IMG/VR virus record: IMGVR_UViG_3300015360_000058 | Span: 1-51,530 of that record | Direction: 5' to 3' (one strand) | DNA length: 51,530 nt | Source of the DNA: a virus | Shown here: positions 13,802 to 39,144 of the stretch, piece by piece | How positions within the stretch are numbered: position 1 is the stretch's first letter | Layout: each line of letters begins with the position of its first letter | Made by a program: the position numbers and the translations under genes | The notes under the pieces: generated by a model | What the model was told of the DNA's origin: nothing | The model's input: only the letters and a program-made list of their open reading frames with translations | Databases searched by the model: none

Positions 13802-14068
13802 ATGCAGGTTCGAGGACTCGACATCGACGACCTTTTTTTAATTTATTACTTTGGCAGCGGTATGTCGCTTATCCAATCGGCGCGAAAGCTCAACCTATCT
13901 TCGCCTGCCATTACGCACCGCTTTCATAAAATAGAAAACTGTCTTGGCGTTACGGTCGTCCTGCGAGCTGGTAAGCATAGGTCTTTAACGCCGGAAGGTG
14001 TTAAACTTTACCTAGCAATTACTCAGATTATAAAGATTCTAAACGAACTTGATTTAAGGATCACGTGA
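13802..14068 (+). CDS. LysR-like winged HTH protein without effector domain
   Basis: The 88-residue protein starts behind GGAGGG. Residues about 10-75 match the N-terminal DNA-binding domain of LysR regulators: SLIQSARKLNLSSPAITHRF, then a Leu/Gly segment and TPEGVKLY. The effector-binding domain that usually follows (about 200 residues) is absent, and the next gene starts two bases later, so this is a complete HTH-only protein. It probably binds DNA as a dimer. It lies just upstream of the lysis genes and could regulate late expression or act on host promoters. The fold call is good; the target is unknown. Confidence 0.6.
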   Translation: MQVRGLDIDDLFLIYYFGSGMSLIQSARKLNLSSPAITHRFHKIENCLGVTVVLRAGKHRSLTPEGVKLYLAITQIIKILNELDLRIT

Positions 14069-15267: not shown

Positions 15268-15304
15268 ATATTAATTATTGATTTTTTAAAAAATGGTGAA
15301 ATTT

Positions 15305-15736
15305 ATGATTACCTGTTCAAGGCGCATACAATTCTGCTCTGGTCATAGAGTTCTTAACCATGAATCAAAGTGTGCAAATCCTCATGGTCATAACTACGTT
15401 ATGTGGATTCACGCTAGAGCACCCTCATTAGACGGTATAGGAAGAGTTATCGACTTCTCGGTTCTTAAAGCAACCGTTGGAGAATGGGTTATTGATAACT
15501 GGGATCATACGTTTATCGCTAACGATCAAGATATAGATCTGATCAATGCAATTAAACCGTTCCATAAGAATAAAAAAATATGGGAAGCGCCATTTAACCC
15601 AACCGCTGAAAATATGGCTGAATATATTCTAAAAACTGTTTGTCCAATTGTTTTAAAAAACTCTGGAGTAGAAGTTTTTCACATCGAACTCTTTGAAACG
15701 GAGAACTGCAAAGCAGATGCAATATTACATCAATGA
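15305..15736 (+). CDS. queD: 6-carboxy-5,6,7,8-tetrahydropterin synthase
   Basis: The ATG at 15305 has a GGTGA site; the in-frame ATG at 15293 lacks one. The 143-residue protein keeps the QueD signature: Zn ligands in SGHR (His14) and PHGHNY (His27, His29), the catalytic Cys23 four residues before HGH, the WDH segment and the substrate motif PTAENMAEYI. The enzyme turns 7,8-dihydroneopterin triphosphate into 6-carboxytetrahydropterin, the second step from GTP to 7-deazaguanines. It is the first gene of a cassette with queE, folE, a queD paralog and a dpdA-like gene, and overlaps queE by 20 bp. All catalytic residues appear intact. GC content is below that of the late genes. Confidence 0.92.
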   Translation: MITCSRRIQFCSGHRVLNHESKCANPHGHNYVMWIHARAPSLDGIGRVIDFSVLKATVGEWVIDNWDHTFIANDQDIDLINAIKPFHKNKKIWEAPFNPTAENMAEYILKTVCPIVLKNSGVEVFHIELFETENCKADAILHQ

Positions 15737-16304
15737 TTTATTCTGGACGGTTCAAGGAGAGGGCTTTCACGCTGGCCGACGTGCATTATTTGTTAGAATG
15801 CCTTACTGCAATCTCGCTTGTTCGTGGTGTGATACTTCGTTTAACTCATATCAAAAAATTGAAGTTGATGAATTTCAAAAAATAGCAACCAGCGAAAGCG
15901 CAAAGTTTGCAGTCATCACGGGCGGTGAACCTATGATGAACAGGCACACTCCTATCATTGTTGCTCATCTTAAGAATCTAGGCTTTGAAATAGCTTGCGA
16001 GACAAATGGAACCTTTCCAATCGTTCCAGGAATTGATTACCCTACGTGCTCACCGAAGAGGGATGCAGACTACTTTATCCATCCAGACGCCTTGCCGGTG
16101 GTAAAAGAATTTAAATACGTTGTAGACGAAGGGTTTGATTTCTCGATCCTTGAAAAACACGCTGTTGATGACGGCCGAAGATATAGCCTGTCTCCTGAGT
16201 TTGGCAATATGCAAGCCTCTGTAGAGAAGATTATTGAATATATTAAAGGCAATCCACAGTGGCGGCTGAACTTGCAGACTCATAAATGGATCGGGGCAAA
16301 ATAA
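15717..16304 (+). CDS. queE: 7-carboxy-7-deazaguanine synthase (radical SAM)
   Basis: The ATG at 15717 gives 195 residues beginning MQYYINDLFWTVQGEG, a typical QueE start; the in-frame ATG at 15693 would add eight atypical residues. The radical SAM cluster motif CNLACSWC (Cys31, Cys35, Cys38) has the CX3CX2C spacing, followed by the SAM-binding GGEP (69-72) and an SPK motif. The C-terminus LNLQTHKWIG is characteristic of QueE. The enzyme contracts 6-carboxytetrahydropterin to 7-carboxy-7-deazaguanine (CDG), using SAM and Mg2+. It overlaps queD upstream and shares TAATG with folE, showing translational coupling. All key residues are present. Confidence 0.93.
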   Translation: MQYYINDLFWTVQGEGFHAGRRALFVRMPYCNLACSWCDTSFNSYQKIEVDEFQKIATSESAKFAVITGGEPMMNRHTPIIVAHLKNLGFEIACETNGTFPIVPGIDYPTCSPKRDADYFIHPDALPVVKEFKYVVDEGFDFSILEKHAVDDGRRYSLSPEFGNMQASVEKIIEYIKGNPQWRLNLQTHKWIGAK

Positions 16305-16849
16305 TGTCAGAAGAATTAATAGCTCAAATTATAAATCTTGTTGGTGATGATAGTAGTAGAGAAGGTGTTCTTGACACTCCGAAGAGGGTGATAAAATCTT
16401 GGAAAGAGTTATATTCAGGATATAAACAAGACCCTAATATCATTCTTGAAAGAGTTTTTACAGACGAGTCCTACGATCAAATGATCGTGTTAAAAGATAT
16501 CGACTTCTACTCAACATGTGAACACCATATGCAACCCTTTTTTGGCAAGGTACATATTGCCTACATCCCGAATAATAATAAGGTTGTGGGTCTATCTAAG
16601 CTCGCGCGGTTAGTGGAATGCTTTAGTCGCCGCCTTCAAATACAGGAAAGAATGACGCAGCAAATAGCGCAAACTTTTTTTGATATTGTTAAACCAAAAG
16701 GCGTTGGCGTTGTTGTTGAAGGAAAGCATTTTTGTATGGTTGCAAGAGGCGTCCAAAAACAAAATGGCGTAATGAAGACTAGCGCGTTAAAAGGGTTGTT
16801 TAAAGAGGACCCCGATTGTAGGAATGAATTTTTAAAGGCAATCAGTTAA
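16304..16849 (+). CDS. folE: GTP cyclohydrolase I
   Basis: The ATG at 16304 overlaps the queE stop (TAATG) and gives 181 residues; an ATG at 16286 would add six residues inside queE. Zn-binding residues of the CEHH motif (Cys72, His75) and of HFCMVARGV (Cys144) are present, as are the GLSKLARLVE, RLQIQERMTQQIA and GVMKTSA segments of FolE. The enzyme converts GTP to 7,8-dihydroneopterin triphosphate, the entry step of the deazaguanine pathway. Encoding it lets the phage raise flux independently of host folate synthesis. Its TAA shares bases with the ATG of the next gene. Confidence 0.95.
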   Translation: MSEELIAQIINLVGDDSSREGVLDTPKRVIKSWKELYSGYKQDPNIILERVFTDESYDQMIVLKDIDFYSTCEHHMQPFFGKVHIAYIPNNNKVVGLSKLARLVECFSRRLQIQERMTQQIAQTFFDIVKPKGVGVVVEGKHFCMVARGVQKQNGVMKTSALKGLFKEDPDCRNEFLKAIS

Positions 16850-17190
16850 TGAATAAAAAATTCATAGTAGTTCGATGGCAGTTTGCAGGATTTCATGCTT
16901 ATGAAAATGCTCCTGAGCAGGTAAGTTTTCTTAAGACAACGCACAGGCATTTGTTTAAATGCTCTGCCAAGATTGAAGTTAAACACGATAACCGTGAGCT
17001 TGAATTTTTTATGGTTCAAACAGATTTAACCAACGTGTTTAAAGCCGGCAATCACGATAACAAATCATGCGAAATGATAGCTGAAAACATACTGTCGTAT
17101 ATTGAAAATCGGTACGGGTATGATCGTAAAATAGAAATAGAAGTATCGGAAGATGGCGAAAATTCTGCCGTCGTTGAAAATGCATTATGA
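16849..17190 (+). CDS. QueD-fold paralog lacking the catalytic Cys; candidate deazaguanine-modifying enzyme
   Basis: The 113-residue protein resembles a short QueD. The presumed Zn ligands remain: FAGFHAY (His16) and THRHLF (His32, His34). The position that holds the catalytic Cys in the true QueD, four residues before HxH, is Leu28. The substrate motif PTAEN is replaced by KSCEM. It should therefore bind metal in the tunnel fold but cannot perform the QueD reaction. With queC absent, it may act on CDG, for example decarboxylating it to 7-deazaguanine as proposed for the phage enzyme DpdL; I recall that proposal but cannot compare sequences here. It overlaps dpdA by ATGA. Confidence 0.7.
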   Translation: MNKKFIVVRWQFAGFHAYENAPEQVSFLKTTHRHLFKCSAKIEVKHDNRELEFFMVQTDLTNVFKAGNHDNKSCEMIAENILSYIENRYGYDRKIEIEVSEDGENSAVVENAL

Positions 17191-18068
17191 AGATTTTTTT
17201 GGCTGGATGCGAAGTGTTACATCAATTTGATGCGTGTACTAGTGTTAATATAAAAAATGTACTTATTTCTTATTACCATGTAAAAAAAACAGAAGACTTT
17301 TCTAAAAAAATCATTAATAGGCTAGAACAAATAGACAATCTTATTTGTGACTCTGGCTTGTTTACATTAATGTTTGGCGCTGGCAAGGGTGCAACACACA
17401 CACTATCAAGCATGAAAAAATATACTGTCGACTATATAAAGTATGCGAAAACAATTGATCATAAAAAAGTTACATTTGTTGAATCAGATGTTCATAAATT
17501 ACTCGGTATGGGCGCGGTGTTTGAACTGAGAAAAATGTTTGAAGATTCAGGCCTTAAAGTAATTTATACTTGGCATATTGAAGAAGGAATCGAAGGCCTT
17601 TACCGTCTGGCAGAAAAATATGAATATATAGCTATCTCGGTTCCTGAACTAAGAGTCTTGTTTACAGGCAAGAAAATGAGATATCAGGACGGCGTGAAAG
17701 ACCTTTTAAAGAAAATAAGAACCAACGTAAAAAGCTACCCAAAGATTCACTTGCTCGGCAATACCATCCAAGAAACAATGGAAACAAACTTAGCCTATTC
17801 TTGTGACTCAACCTCTTATCTCTCAGGAGTCAAATACGGAAATTGCGTTGTTTATAAAGACGGCAAACTTTCTCAAGCGCACATTCGTTCAACTGAAATA
17901 ACTGAGCGAATTTTAAAACTTGAAAACATGCTGCCCGGTATAAGTAAGATTATACAGGATCATTCCATGAAAAATAAAATGTGGTTTAAACAAGTCGCTA
18001 TCTCTGCACATGCTTATTCTCAATACCAAAACTATCTCGATAGAAATTATAAATTTATAGGCGGTTGA
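17187..18068 (+). CDS. dpdA: DNA guanine transglycosylase (DpdA-like, TGT fold)
   Basis: The 293-residue protein looks like a phage member of the tRNA-guanine transglycosylase superfamily. It has a DSGLF motif (Asp55, matching the DSGG/F general acid/base site), ESDVH (Asp101), HLLGNT (188-193, matching the G-x-G base-binding strand region) and DSTSYLSG (Asp207, the presumed nucleophile). The canonical Cys-rich zinc site of tRNA enzymes is not seen. Placement after queD, queE and folE indicates a DNA substrate: exchange of guanine in phage DNA for a 7-deazaguanine. The likely role is protection from host restriction. Subfamily assignment needs alignment. Confidence 0.85.
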   Translation: MKIFLAGCEVLHQFDACTSVNIKNVLISYYHVKKTEDFSKKIINRLEQIDNLICDSGLFTLMFGAGKGATHTLSSMKKYTVDYIKYAKTIDHKKVTFVESDVHKLLGMGAVFELRKMFEDSGLKVIYTWHIEEGIEGLYRLAEKYEYIAISVPELRVLFTGKKMRYQDGVKDLLKKIRTNVKSYPKIHLLGNTIQETMETNLAYSCDSTSYLSGVKYGNCVVYKDGKLSQAHIRSTEITERILKLENMLPGISKIIQDHSMKNKMWFKQVAISAHAYSQYQNYLDRNYKFIGG

Positions 18069-18069
18069 T

Positions 18070-18753
18070 ATGGATATTAGAATTAATTATGAAATAGTTT
18101 CTATAGATCGTGTAAAGCCAAACGCTTGGAATCCAAATATACAAACCGATTTCATATTCGAACATGAAATAAAGTCTATTAAAAAACACGGATTCATTGC
18201 GCCCATTATCGTTAGGGAGTTAGACAACGGCACGCTTGAAATTGTTGACGGAGAGCATCGTTACAAGGCGGCACTTAAATTAGGCTCTGACAAAATAGCG
18301 GTTAATAATTTAGGCAAGATTGATATTAAAGACTCAAAAGCGCTAACCGTTATTATGAACGAAGTTAGAGGCAAGGCAGATACTTTTAAAATGGGCGAGT
18401 TGATTAAAGACCTAAACAATTCTTTTGGCATGGACTTTATTTTAGATTCGATGCCAATGACTGAGATAGAAATAAACAACATGTTGGGCAATGCCTCAAT
18501 CGACTGGGACGCGGTTACACCTGATTCAACTAATTCAAGTGATTCAACTAACAACCCAGCACCACCAAAAGACGCTGAACATTCAACATTGTCTTTTCAC
18601 GTGCCAGCGTATATTGCCGAACAATTTAACGAGCAGCTGCAAAGGTTTAAAACGCTTCTGTTTCCTGATGACATCAACGTGCAGGACACAATGCCATTGC
18701 AAGCAATGATTGAAATATTACGCATAACGCCAGACGAGGATATAATTGATTAA
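18070..18753 (+). CDS. ParB/Srx-fold protein, possible partner of the transglycosylase
   Basis: The 227-residue protein has an N-terminal ParB-like domain (residues about 8-100) with the motif HGFIAPIIVRE and the phosphate-binding DGEHRYKAA (60-68). A Ser/Thr/Asn linker (about residues 155-170) follows, then an acidic helical tail. It begins one base after the dpdA stop and overlaps the transporter gene, so it belongs to the modification operon. In bacterial dpd clusters a ParB-domain protein, DpdB, works with DpdA; I infer a similar partner or targeting role. A ParB-type CTPase or nuclease acting elsewhere is possible. No parA gene or parS cluster was found, which argues against plasmid-style partition. 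Confidence 0.7.
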   Translation: MDIRINYEIVSIDRVKPNAWNPNIQTDFIFEHEIKSIKKHGFIAPIIVRELDNGTLEIVDGEHRYKAALKLGSDKIAVNNLGKIDIKDSKALTVIMNEVRGKADTFKMGELIKDLNNSFGMDFILDSMPMTEIEINNMLGNASIDWDAVTPDSTNSSDSTNNPAPPKDAEHSTLSFHVPAYIAEQFNEQLQRFKTLLFPDDINVQDTMPLQAMIEILRITPDEDIID

Positions 18754-19279
18754 GAGTTATATTTTAATCGCCTTATATCTTGCAGCAATTGTTGCTGCGA
18801 ATAATATTGTTACTTATATGGGTCCGTCTGGACTTTTTATAACAGCAACATTTCTAATACCATTTGATTTAATCGCACGAGATCAACTGCAAGAAAATTG
18901 GCGCGGCAGTTACATGCTTCCTAAGATGGCGGCAGTAATATGTTTAGGCTCAATACTGGCCTATTTGTTTAATAGCGATACCAAACTAGTGTCTGCAGCG
19001 AGTGCAGTTAGTTTTTTAATTGCTGGTTCGATAGACTGTTTTTTGTATACGATACTTGACGGCAAGAAAAAATTCATAAAAATGAACTTGTCTAACCTTG
19101 GCGCGTCCATAGCCGACAGTTTTATTTTTCAATGGATAGCTTTCGGCGCAGTCTCTTACACGATTGCATGGCAACAAATAACTCTTAAGTTACTTGGTGG
19201 CCTTTTTTGGTCGGTAATTTTTGTTAAGGTTTACAACCGCGCACTAGCATCACGCGATACTTTACGCCATCGCAAGTAA
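18746..19279 (+). CDS. YhhQ/VUT-family queuosine-precursor transporter
   Basis: The gene starts with TTG at 18746, spaced correctly behind GAGGA, and overlaps the ParB gene by 8 bp. The 177-residue protein has five or six hydrophobic segments. The family pattern is clear: IVAANNIVTYMGPSGLFI at the N-terminus, PFDLIARDQLQENWRG, then SAVSFLIAGSIDCFLY and SNLGASIADSFIFQ. YhhQ imports the queuosine precursor preQ0 in E. coli. In a phage cassette it could import preQ0, preQ1 or related bases into the infected cell, or export surplus. It is shorter than the bacterial protein (about 220 residues). Confidence 0.8.
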   Translation: MIKSYILIALYLAAIVAANNIVTYMGPSGLFITATFLIPFDLIARDQLQENWRGSYMLPKMAAVICLGSILAYLFNSDTKLVSAASAVSFLIAGSIDCFLYTILDGKKKFIKMNLSNLGASIADSFIFQWIAFGAVSYTIAWQQITLKLLGGLFWSVIFVKVYNRALASRDTLRHRK

Positions 19280-37368: not shown

Positions 37369-38280
37369 TTATTTCATGCCTAAGTGTTCTTGCAAGTCTT
37401 CTATACCGTCGACCACGGCGTAGGCGGCGTAGTTACCTATCCCGTTACACTTAGAGCCGTCGCGTGCCTTGTAGGCTATCCTCATATAGCCTTTTTCTCC
37501 CCAACCCTTACCCCAACTGTTACGCATAAGCCAGTAACCGCCGCCGCCGTACTTCGCGTCGTCGACCCAGCCGTCTAGGACTGTCATGTGGTTAGTAGAC
37601 GACGATCCGCAGGCTGTAAAAACTCCGCTCTTGTAGCTTTGAAAAGCTCCGCTACCGTCCACATCCACGGCGACGGGACCGTGCTTTAATATAGCCGCCT
37701 TGATTTGGTCGGTCGACGCACCGTGTTTATCGCCGACGTAGGCCCACCGCGTAACGGTCGCGACGGCTTTACCGCCCGCCTTACACGCCGAGTTGCGCGC
37801 GAGGTAGGGGTCAAAAGACTCGTCTGGGACGCCAACTTTTATGCAGTTAAACGCGGTAAAAAAACCACCGGAACACGTGCCCTCGTTACAGCAACTTGAC
37901 ACGAGGTGTTGCTCTGAAAAGTCGACCCGATCTTGAATAGGCTTAGTGATGCGGGTAAGACTTTCCACGACAGCGACCGTCGCGAAACTCCAACAGCTAC
38001 CGCAGCCGCCTTGATTTCGTATCGGCTGTAGGCGAGCCTCGTCGTTCCAGTCGTAAGAATTAGGTAATGTTTCCATCGTCGCTACGACGTCGAACTCGGC
38101 GGTTTCCTGCCACCCCTCGGCCGGATGCGACAGGCCGGTCGCGTAGGTCGTTTCGTTGTCGCTTTCGGGAGGATTTTTAGGAGCTACTGGAAGATTGTAA
38201 GGATGCATTTCGTTATTAATAACAACGTAACCGCACGCCGAAACCACAATGCTTAAAACTAAATAATATAAGTATTTCAT
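37369..38280 (-). CDS. Papain-like (C1A) cysteine protease lipoprotein
   Basis: The 303-residue protein starts behind AGGAG. It has a lipobox ending at Cys16 (SIVVSAC), a propeptide-like stretch and a papain domain from about residue 72. The catalytic set is complete: Gln90, Cys96 in NQGGCGSCW, His231 in TNHMTVLDG and Asn254 in RNSWGKGWGEKGY. Several further Cys residues fit a disulfide-stabilised exported enzyme. The protein would sit on the outer membrane or in the periplasm and digest proteins. Such secreted proteases are unusual in phages. It follows the trypsin-like gene with its own terminator, forming a separate minus-strand unit. Confidence 0.88.
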   Translation of the reverse strand: MKYLYYLVLSIVVSACGYVVINNEMHPYNLPVAPKNPPESDNETTYATGLSHPAEGWQETAEFDVVATMETLPNSYDWNDEARLQPIRNQGGCGSCWSFATVAVVESLTRITKPIQDRVDFSEQHLVSSCCNEGTCSGGFFTAFNCIKVGVPDESFDPYLARNSACKAGGKAVATVTRWAYVGDKHGASTDQIKAAILKHGPVAVDVDGSGAFQSYKSGVFTACGSSSTNHMTVLDGWVDDAKYGGGGYWLMRNSWGKGWGEKGYMRIAYKARDGSKCNGIGNYAAYAVVDGIEDLQEHLGMK

Positions 38281-38286
38281 AACCGA

Positions 38287-39144
38287 TTACTCCTGAAGTT
38301 CCGACGCGACTTGACAGGAAAAAAGTTCGCTGTATTTCTTACGGCAACCTTCCGGGTCTGTCAAAGAAAGGCGCGGGTTTCCATAGACACACTGGTTTAC
38401 GTTTACCAAGGTTTGAGCGCACCAAGGCGGCACGGGCGAGGGGTCTGGTTGCGCAGCTCCGCGACAATTTTCTGCGTCGACAGCAACGCCGCAAATTTTA
38501 ACGTTGTTTTCAACCGACCACGAAACGTAAAAATCACGCGCCGTCTTCGTGTAAACTGCCGGCAGGTAGGACGTCTCCCTGATGTCGCCTCGACTGTTGA
38601 TGCCTGCGATTTTATAGACTCCGTCGGCTCCTTTAAAAAACGCAGACCCGCCGGAGTCGCCAAAGCACAACGCCGCGTTTCCTTTCGTCACGATATCGTT
38701 GTCGCCGCTAGGAAGTTTAACGACAGGAGCTTCGCCGATACGAAACACGTCGTCGCTACCGCCGCCGCCGCCAGATTGTACGCAACCCATACCGGCTAGA
38801 AGGAGCTTAGTTCCGACCTTAATTTCGTCGCCGTTAGTCATAACGCTTTCGTAGAAGGCTACTTTAACGTCGTCCGAAAAAACGCACAGAGCGTAGTCTG
38901 AAGTAGCGTCGGTTTTATAGTTTTTGTGGTGAGTGCAGGTAGCTATTTTTTTAACGCCTTCGACCGTAATACTTGCGGTTCGACCGTTGCCGACGCAGTG
39001 GGCGGCCAGTTGGAGCACCCGACTGCCGAGTAGTGTACCAGTACATCGACTGTTGCCTTGGCTTGTTGTAAAGCTAGCAGGCCAATCTTTACGGTCTGCG
39101 GGCGCCCCACCTATAAGTGTAGGGTAGATTGGCGCTTCTAACAT
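38287..39144 (-). CDS. Trypsin-like (S1) serine protease domain
   Basis: The 285-residue frame starts at ATG 39144 and contains PTLIGGAPA, matching the S1 maturation site, then the triad His49 (LAAHC), Asp83 (SDYALC) and Ser164 (GDSGGS). Many Cys residues fit disulfides. No signal peptide precedes it in this frame. The overlapping frame 39089-39304 supplies a lipoprotein signal, one base out of frame. I think the two are one gene split by a frame change near 39145. The C-terminus (ELQE) ends at the ribosome site of the papain gene. Confidence 0.85.
   Translation of the reverse strand: MLEAPIYPTLIGGAPADRKDWPASFTTSQGNSRCTGTLLGSRVLQLAAHCVGNGRTASITVEGVKKIATCTHHKNYKTDATSDYALCVFSDDVKVAFYESVMTNGDEIKVGTKLLLAGMGCVQSGGGGGSDDVFRIGEAPVVKLPSGDNDIVTKGNAALCFGDSGGSAFFKGADGVYKIAGINSRGDIRETSYLPAVYTKTARDFYVSWSVENNVKICGVAVDAENCRGAAQPDPSPVPPWCAQTLVNVNQCVYGNPRLSLTDPEGCRKKYSELFSCQVASELQE

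Follow-up and report, generated by a model that had tools for sequence, protein, structure and literature searches.

Which base does a phage place in its DNA when it encodes the enzymes that make 7-carboxy-7-deazaguanine (CDG) and a transglycosylase that could insert a modified guanine, and when QueC is missing? The question is raised by a tailed phage from IMG/VR (record IMGVR_UViG_3300015360_000058), of which the whole stretch of 51,530 bases was analysed and is referred to here as the window. A block of seven genes on the forward strand (15293–19279) encodes, in this order, QueD, QueE, FolE, a small protein that we call ORF4 (open reading frame 4), a DpdA-like transglycosylase, a ParB-like protein and a YhhQ-like transporter. 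We conclude, with a probability of roughly 0.74, that this cassette makes 7-deazaguanine and inserts the base into the phage’s own DNA. An initial annotation had suggested that the inserted base may be CDG or one of its derivatives, such as 7-deazaguanine, and not 7-cyano-7-deazaguanine (preQ0), and three independent lines support that suggestion: ORF4 and QueC are mutually exclusive in otherwise identical cassettes, ORF4 has a predicted QueD fold without the catalytic residues of QueD, and those positions of DpdA that best distinguish members linked to ORF4 from members linked to QueC are placed by modelling at the active-site ends of the barrel strands.

The absence of QueC (PF06508, a PP-loop ATPase) extends to the entire record: no match was found anywhere in the 51.5 kilobases (kb), and 12 of 14 control genomes were matched. 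A gap in the assembly was considered as the cause and rejected, as the genome is near-complete by gene content and the same pattern occurs in dozens of records. Genes for the large terminase, portal, head protease, major capsid, tape measure, primase, helicase, Sak4 and a RecE-like protein are all present in the record, so a mere gap is unlikely.

Across related viruses, ORF4 and QueC behave as alternatives. None of 50 records selected for ORF4 has QueC, and no QueC match was found in 12 of 14 ORF4-bearing named phages. Among 50 records selected for DpdA, ORF4 is present in 40 and QueC in 5, with no record containing both; 54 DpdAs from which near-copies had been removed include 43 with ORF4, 5 with QueC, 6 with neither and none with both (P = 1.5e-4, a value that ignores kinship). 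Selection for QueD gave 47 records, 8 with ORF4, 25 with QueC and none with both (P = 1e-3). In the IMG/VR scans, the window’s DpdA or QueE sequence used alone matched nothing, and alignments of two and three members succeeded. In none of the sets examined did a record contain both ORF4 and a complete QueC. A tree of the 54 non-redundant DpdAs requires four changes between the QueC and ORF4 labels, at least three of which are forced by supported branches; the QueC-linked loci L191 and L192 are on long branches. The exchange is therefore recurrent and not a marker of one clade.

The two proteins also share a position. Locus L192 has the order QueD–QueE–FolE–QueC–DpdA–ParB, whereas the window has QueD–QueE–FolE–ORF4–DpdA–ParB–YhhQ, and one further locus (L100) reproduces the seven-gene order of the window exactly. 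Several phages, including the complete Faecalibacterium phage Roos, have reduced ParB–ORF4–DpdA cassettes and no QueD-type protein anywhere in the record; these presumably draw CDG from the host. The slot shared with QueC and the reduced cassettes indicate that ORF4 most likely acts after CDG, on the substrate of QueC.

ORF4 (16849–17190, forward strand; 113 amino acids) belongs to PHROG 17812, for which no function is listed, and is a probable CDG decarboxylase of the DpdL type. Among named phages, 27 have a homolog, as do at least 594 stretches of IMG/VR. The protein has no match in Pfam or NCBIfam, and sequence searches of the PDB likewise fail to place it. An AlphaFold model built from 75 sequences has a mean predicted local distance difference test score (pLDDT) of 95.3 and the strand–strand–helix–helix–strand–strand order of a T-fold. 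In a Foldseek search of the PDB, the thirteen best matches are all QueD/PTPS proteins, with Escherichia coli QueD at the top (template modelling (TM) score of 0.77, E = 1e-4). The initial annotation had named a QueD-like paralog without its cysteine; the predicted fold, invisible to Pfam, bears this out, and the position of the QueD nucleophile (C27), matched by its spacing to the HxH motif, is occupied by the invariant Leu28. Eleven residues are invariant across 114 non-redundant members (H16, L28, H32, H34, F36, V44, R49, E52, C74, E75 and E101), and the motif S73-C74-E75 is conserved. The Asp-His pair of QueD is also missing, as it falls in a deleted loop. With the cysteine and the Asp-His pair gone and the histidine triad and glutamate kept, ORF4 therefore likely retains a metal site (three zinc histidines) and a base-anchoring glutamate in the modelled fold, and not the chemistry of QueD. 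In two loci, the ORF4 domain is fused behind an N-terminal domain, which resembles endonuclease VII/HNH proteins in Chryseobacterium phage MA9V-3 and is unassigned in Vibrio phage Bakedbeans.

The DpdA-like DNA guanine transglycosylase (17187–18068, forward strand) is short, at 293 amino acids, and matches PHROG 887 (9e-25). Its AlphaFold model (pLDDT of 91.7) is a TIM barrel, and its best matches in the PDB are tRNA-guanine transglycosylase (TGT; 4htb, 5.7e-6) and the bacterial DpdA that inserts preQ0 into DNA (7ui4, 9.8e-5). Two aspartates, D55 (in DSG) and D207 (in DS), are invariant in 39 relatives; they were equated with the catalytic aspartates of TGT on barrel strands 3 and 8 by motif order, a profile comparison with host TGTs having yielded no usable residue map. 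The fold, family match and invariant aspartates are consistent with the DpdA-like enzyme proposed initially and, from the phage and operon context, we infer that it works on DNA and not on tRNA. Three positions follow the ORF4/QueC exchange: K104 is found in 56, E132 in 55 and S151 in all of 58 ORF4-linked DpdAs, and each is shared by one of five QueC-linked members. In the model, with pocket positions assigned by strand order only, these residues are placed at the C-terminal ends of barrel strands, on the active-site face, adjoining D101, H130 and the end of strand 6, which makes them candidate base-specificity residues. The QueC-linked DpdA of a Prevotella prophage has asparagine at position 104 and serine at 151, and K104 is thus a better correlate than S151.

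The three genes upstream of ORF4 would supply its substrate, and their families and motifs are as intact as had been claimed. QueD (6-carboxytetrahydropterin synthase; 15293–15736, forward strand), which may start at the second in-frame ATG so that the cassette begins at 15305 instead of 15293, matches PF01242 (6.4e-28) and PHROG 2389 (4e-37) and, in a comparison of 15 phage QueD proteins, keeps C27, H31, H33, D71, H72 and E135. QueE (CDG synthase of the radical S-adenosylmethionine type; 15693–16304, forward strand, starting at TTG 15693 or ATG 15717) has the CX3CX2C motif, matches PHROG 2076 (1.7e-30), TIGR04508 (6.9e-32) and also QueE equivalog models, and its best match in the PDB is a solved QueE structure (4njg, 7.8e-25). 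FolE (16286–16849, forward strand) is a canonical GTP cyclohydrolase I (PF01227, 9e-73; PDB 1wm9, 7e-55). The FolE–QueD–QueE pathway leads to CDG (PMC13329287).

Judging by family, FolE would convert GTP to dihydroneopterin triphosphate, from which QueD would form 6-carboxytetrahydropterin (CPH4) and QueE would form CDG. ORF4 would then take CDG instead of QueC and most likely decarboxylate it to 7-deazaguanine: H16, H32 and H34 would form the zinc site, E101 would grip the 2-amino-4-oxo-pyrimidine edge, and R49, E52 and C74, near the zinc, could hold the carboxylate and protonate C7. A decarboxylase that gives 7-deazaguanine best explains the combination of a QueC alternative at CDG, a QueD fold, a three-histidine metal site and no ATP-binding domain. 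Its fold and motifs suggest that DpdA would act on replicated DNA and exchange guanine for the free base; the product would be dDG, the deoxynucleoside of 7-deazaguanine, which we infer to be the exact base in the phage DNA. The ParB-like protein probably aids the loading of DpdA onto DNA, the YhhQ-like protein probably imports external 7-deazaguanine base, and the expected gain would be resistance to restriction enzymes that read the N7 of guanine.

Both remaining proteins score above the cut-off for the domains originally assigned to them. The ParB-N-domain protein (18070–18753, forward strand; PF02195, 5.6e-11; PHROG 723) is the usual partner of this DpdA and adjoins DpdA or ORF4 in many relatives. 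The YhhQ-like (Vut_1) transporter (18746–19279, forward strand) matches PF02592 with 29.6 bits (cut-off of 27.2; 1e-6) over profile positions 64–144 of 152. All 8 QueD records that bear ORF4 contain its gene, whereas none of the remaining 37 records searched has it; it is thus absent from the QueC-bearing ones sampled. In a survey from 2019, YhhQ was uncorrelated with any phage group (PMC6884629).

Several observations weigh against synthesis of 7-deazaguanine by ORF4. The link in sequence between ORF4 and QueD is weak (hhalign probability of 21), although the HxH and SCE/TAE motifs and the C-terminal glutamate align in the same order. The two genes were scored over different ranges, QueC across entire records and ORF4 no further than about 7 kb from the seed gene, and many IMG/VR records are fragments. 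The exclusion of QueC by ORF4 may not be absolute: the ORF4-bearing Xanthomonas phage X1 has a weak QueC match below the cut-off, and Vibrio phage D479, also with ORF4, has a partial QueC-family match (32.8 bits at 153872–154066). The YhhQ gene permits an imported base, and ORF4 could perform reactions on CDG other than decarboxylation.

One competing explanation is that CDG itself is inserted (giving its deoxynucleoside, dCDG) and that ORF4 serves as a CDG carrier or hands CDG over to DpdA, or else removes the carboxyl group only once the base is in DNA. We consider this improbable. It would account for the absence of QueC, and it stays alive because Lys104, present in nearly all ORF4-linked DpdAs at a modelled active-site strand end and mostly lacking in QueC-linked ones, can be read as binding a carboxylate. 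However, the invariant zinc triad of ORF4 and its arginine, glutamate and cysteine residues fit catalysis better than carriage, and free CDG would require no additional protein.

There is likewise a small chance that the modification is an ordinary one, preQ0 or 7-amido-7-deazaguanine (ADG), with ORF4 as an accessory and with preQ0 made from phage CDG by the QueC of the host or brought in by YhhQ. The caveat about host QueC, already raised in the initial annotation, stands: the cultured type strain Veillonella montpellierensis DSM 17217 has its own QueC and a related, probable prophage with the order ORF4–DpdA–QueD–QueE–FolE. YhhQ is described as a preQ0 transporter (PMC6884629), and the phages PEAT2 and phiFN37 have YhhQ and DpdA without nearby Que genes. 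Such a scheme leaves unexplained the exclusion between ORF4 and QueC over many lineages, as well as the retention of FolE, QueD and QueE by a phage that imports preQ0.

Far less credible is a role for ORF4 as a second QueD-type enzyme that raises CPH4, or as a degenerate paralog without a say in the choice of base. The QueD fold and zinc histidines would suit such a role, but the QueD cysteine and Asp-His pair are gone, strong constraint is evident in at least nine invariant residues among the 114 non-redundant members, ORF4 is retained in phages without any QueD, and it substitutes for QueC and not for QueD; we rejected this candidate on the loss of the catalytic residues and the persistence of ORF4 where QueD is lacking. 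Also rejected, as very improbable, was a cassette that raises queuosine in host tRNA, for which Que genes without DpdA in some phages are a precedent (PMC6884629), as this operon includes a DpdA-type transglycosylase with a ParB-domain partner and, without QueC, would provide no preQ0 for tRNA.

Decarboxylation of CDG by ORF4 places the window beside systems that are in part already known. Cui et al. in 2023 reportedly found dDG and dCDG in the DNA of phages and are said to have predicted an enzyme, DpdL, that decarboxylates CDG. ORF4 homologs are encoded beside queD, queE and folE in Cellulophaga phage phiST and Acidovorax phage ACP17, phages that reportedly belong to that literature, and we presume that these homologs are the proteins named DpdL. 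ORF4 has the traits of DpdL in that it is a small phage protein of QueD/PTPS type (by its predicted T-fold) and is encoded with FolE, QueD, QueE and a transglycosylase, without QueC; the DpdL/dDG phages and the window share this arrangement. ORF4 is thus probably DpdL, and the cassette is probably a further case of the dDG modification that has already been described. The derivative of CDG proposed in the initial annotation is supported, although the base is less unusual than was suggested, as the route is widespread and reportedly already published. The window differs from ACP17 and X1 in its shorter DpdA, which is of a subfamily other than PHROG 10773, and in the ParB and YhhQ genes of its operon. 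The paper by Cui et al. (Nucleic Acids Res 51:9214, gkad657) is cited in PMC12783734, PMC13329287 and PMC11515303.

The preQ0 phages Escherichia phage CAjan and Mycobacterium phage Rosebush (PMC6884629) share FolE, QueD, QueE and DpdA with the window, but have QueC where the window has ORF4. Mycobacterium phage Bipper is reported to lack only queC, and its authors suggested that it may carry CDG, the substrate of QueC (PMC6884629); unlike the window, Bipper yielded no ORF4 homolog in the search of named phages. Phage Roos and gut prophages have ParB, ORF4 and DpdA of the window’s families, and differ from it, as do other minimal ORF4–DpdA phages, in lacking a QueD-type gene.

Other genes accompany ORF4 elsewhere. 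A GT4-like glycosyltransferase gene is found near ORF4 in three loci (L002, L004 and L006) and in 56 of the 80 loci L015–L094, several of which are from large T4-like phages; it may possibly add a sugar to the deazaguanine or to another base. The ACP17-type DpdA (PHROG 10773) is distinct from the neighbouring GT4-like protein. Genes for MazG, nucleotide-kinase-like or xanthine-guanine phosphoribosyltransferase proteins are beside ORF4 or QueE in phiST, BUCT-ZZ01 (L004) and D479, which hints that some phages use a route through the nucleotide pool.

Within the window, all seven genes overlap or abut their neighbours, as expected of the single tight operon first described, and the cassette is flanked by an amidase endolysin on one side and replication genes on the other. 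Its GC content (38%) differs from that of the genome (48%), which suggests arrival as one unit. A short LysR-type helix-turn-helix protein (13802–14068) adjoins the lysis genes, and on the reverse strand upstream of the terminase (37369–39144) a papain-family cysteine protease (PF00112, 9e-50) is encoded beside a trypsin-family serine protease (PF00089, 3e-17), a pair that is unusual phage cargo. No end repeats or tRNAs were found in the record.

We tentatively suggest, as a possibility that we would not yet favour, that ORF4 is a switch over which 7-deazaguanine enters DNA: QueC and a QueD-derived zinc decarboxylase would be swappable at the CDG branch, each swap would be accompanied by a re-tuning of the DpdA pocket (K104, E132 and S151), and 7-deazaguanine, not preQ0, would be imported by the linked carrier of YhhQ type. 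PHROG 17812, with its function listed as unknown, becomes a testable enzyme of the CDG branch, and the recurrent, mutually exclusive exchange with QueC provides a clean genetic argument for its position in the pathway. The DpdA positions that change with ORF4 and QueC offer a handle on the choice of base by DNA transglycosylases. Two possible systems for experiments are the cultured Veillonella strain, with its related prophage, and Faecalibacterium phage Roos, which has been isolated. As dDG has no N7, DNA that contains it would resist enzymes and chemistry that depend on this position, which would affect the restriction and sequencing of such phages.

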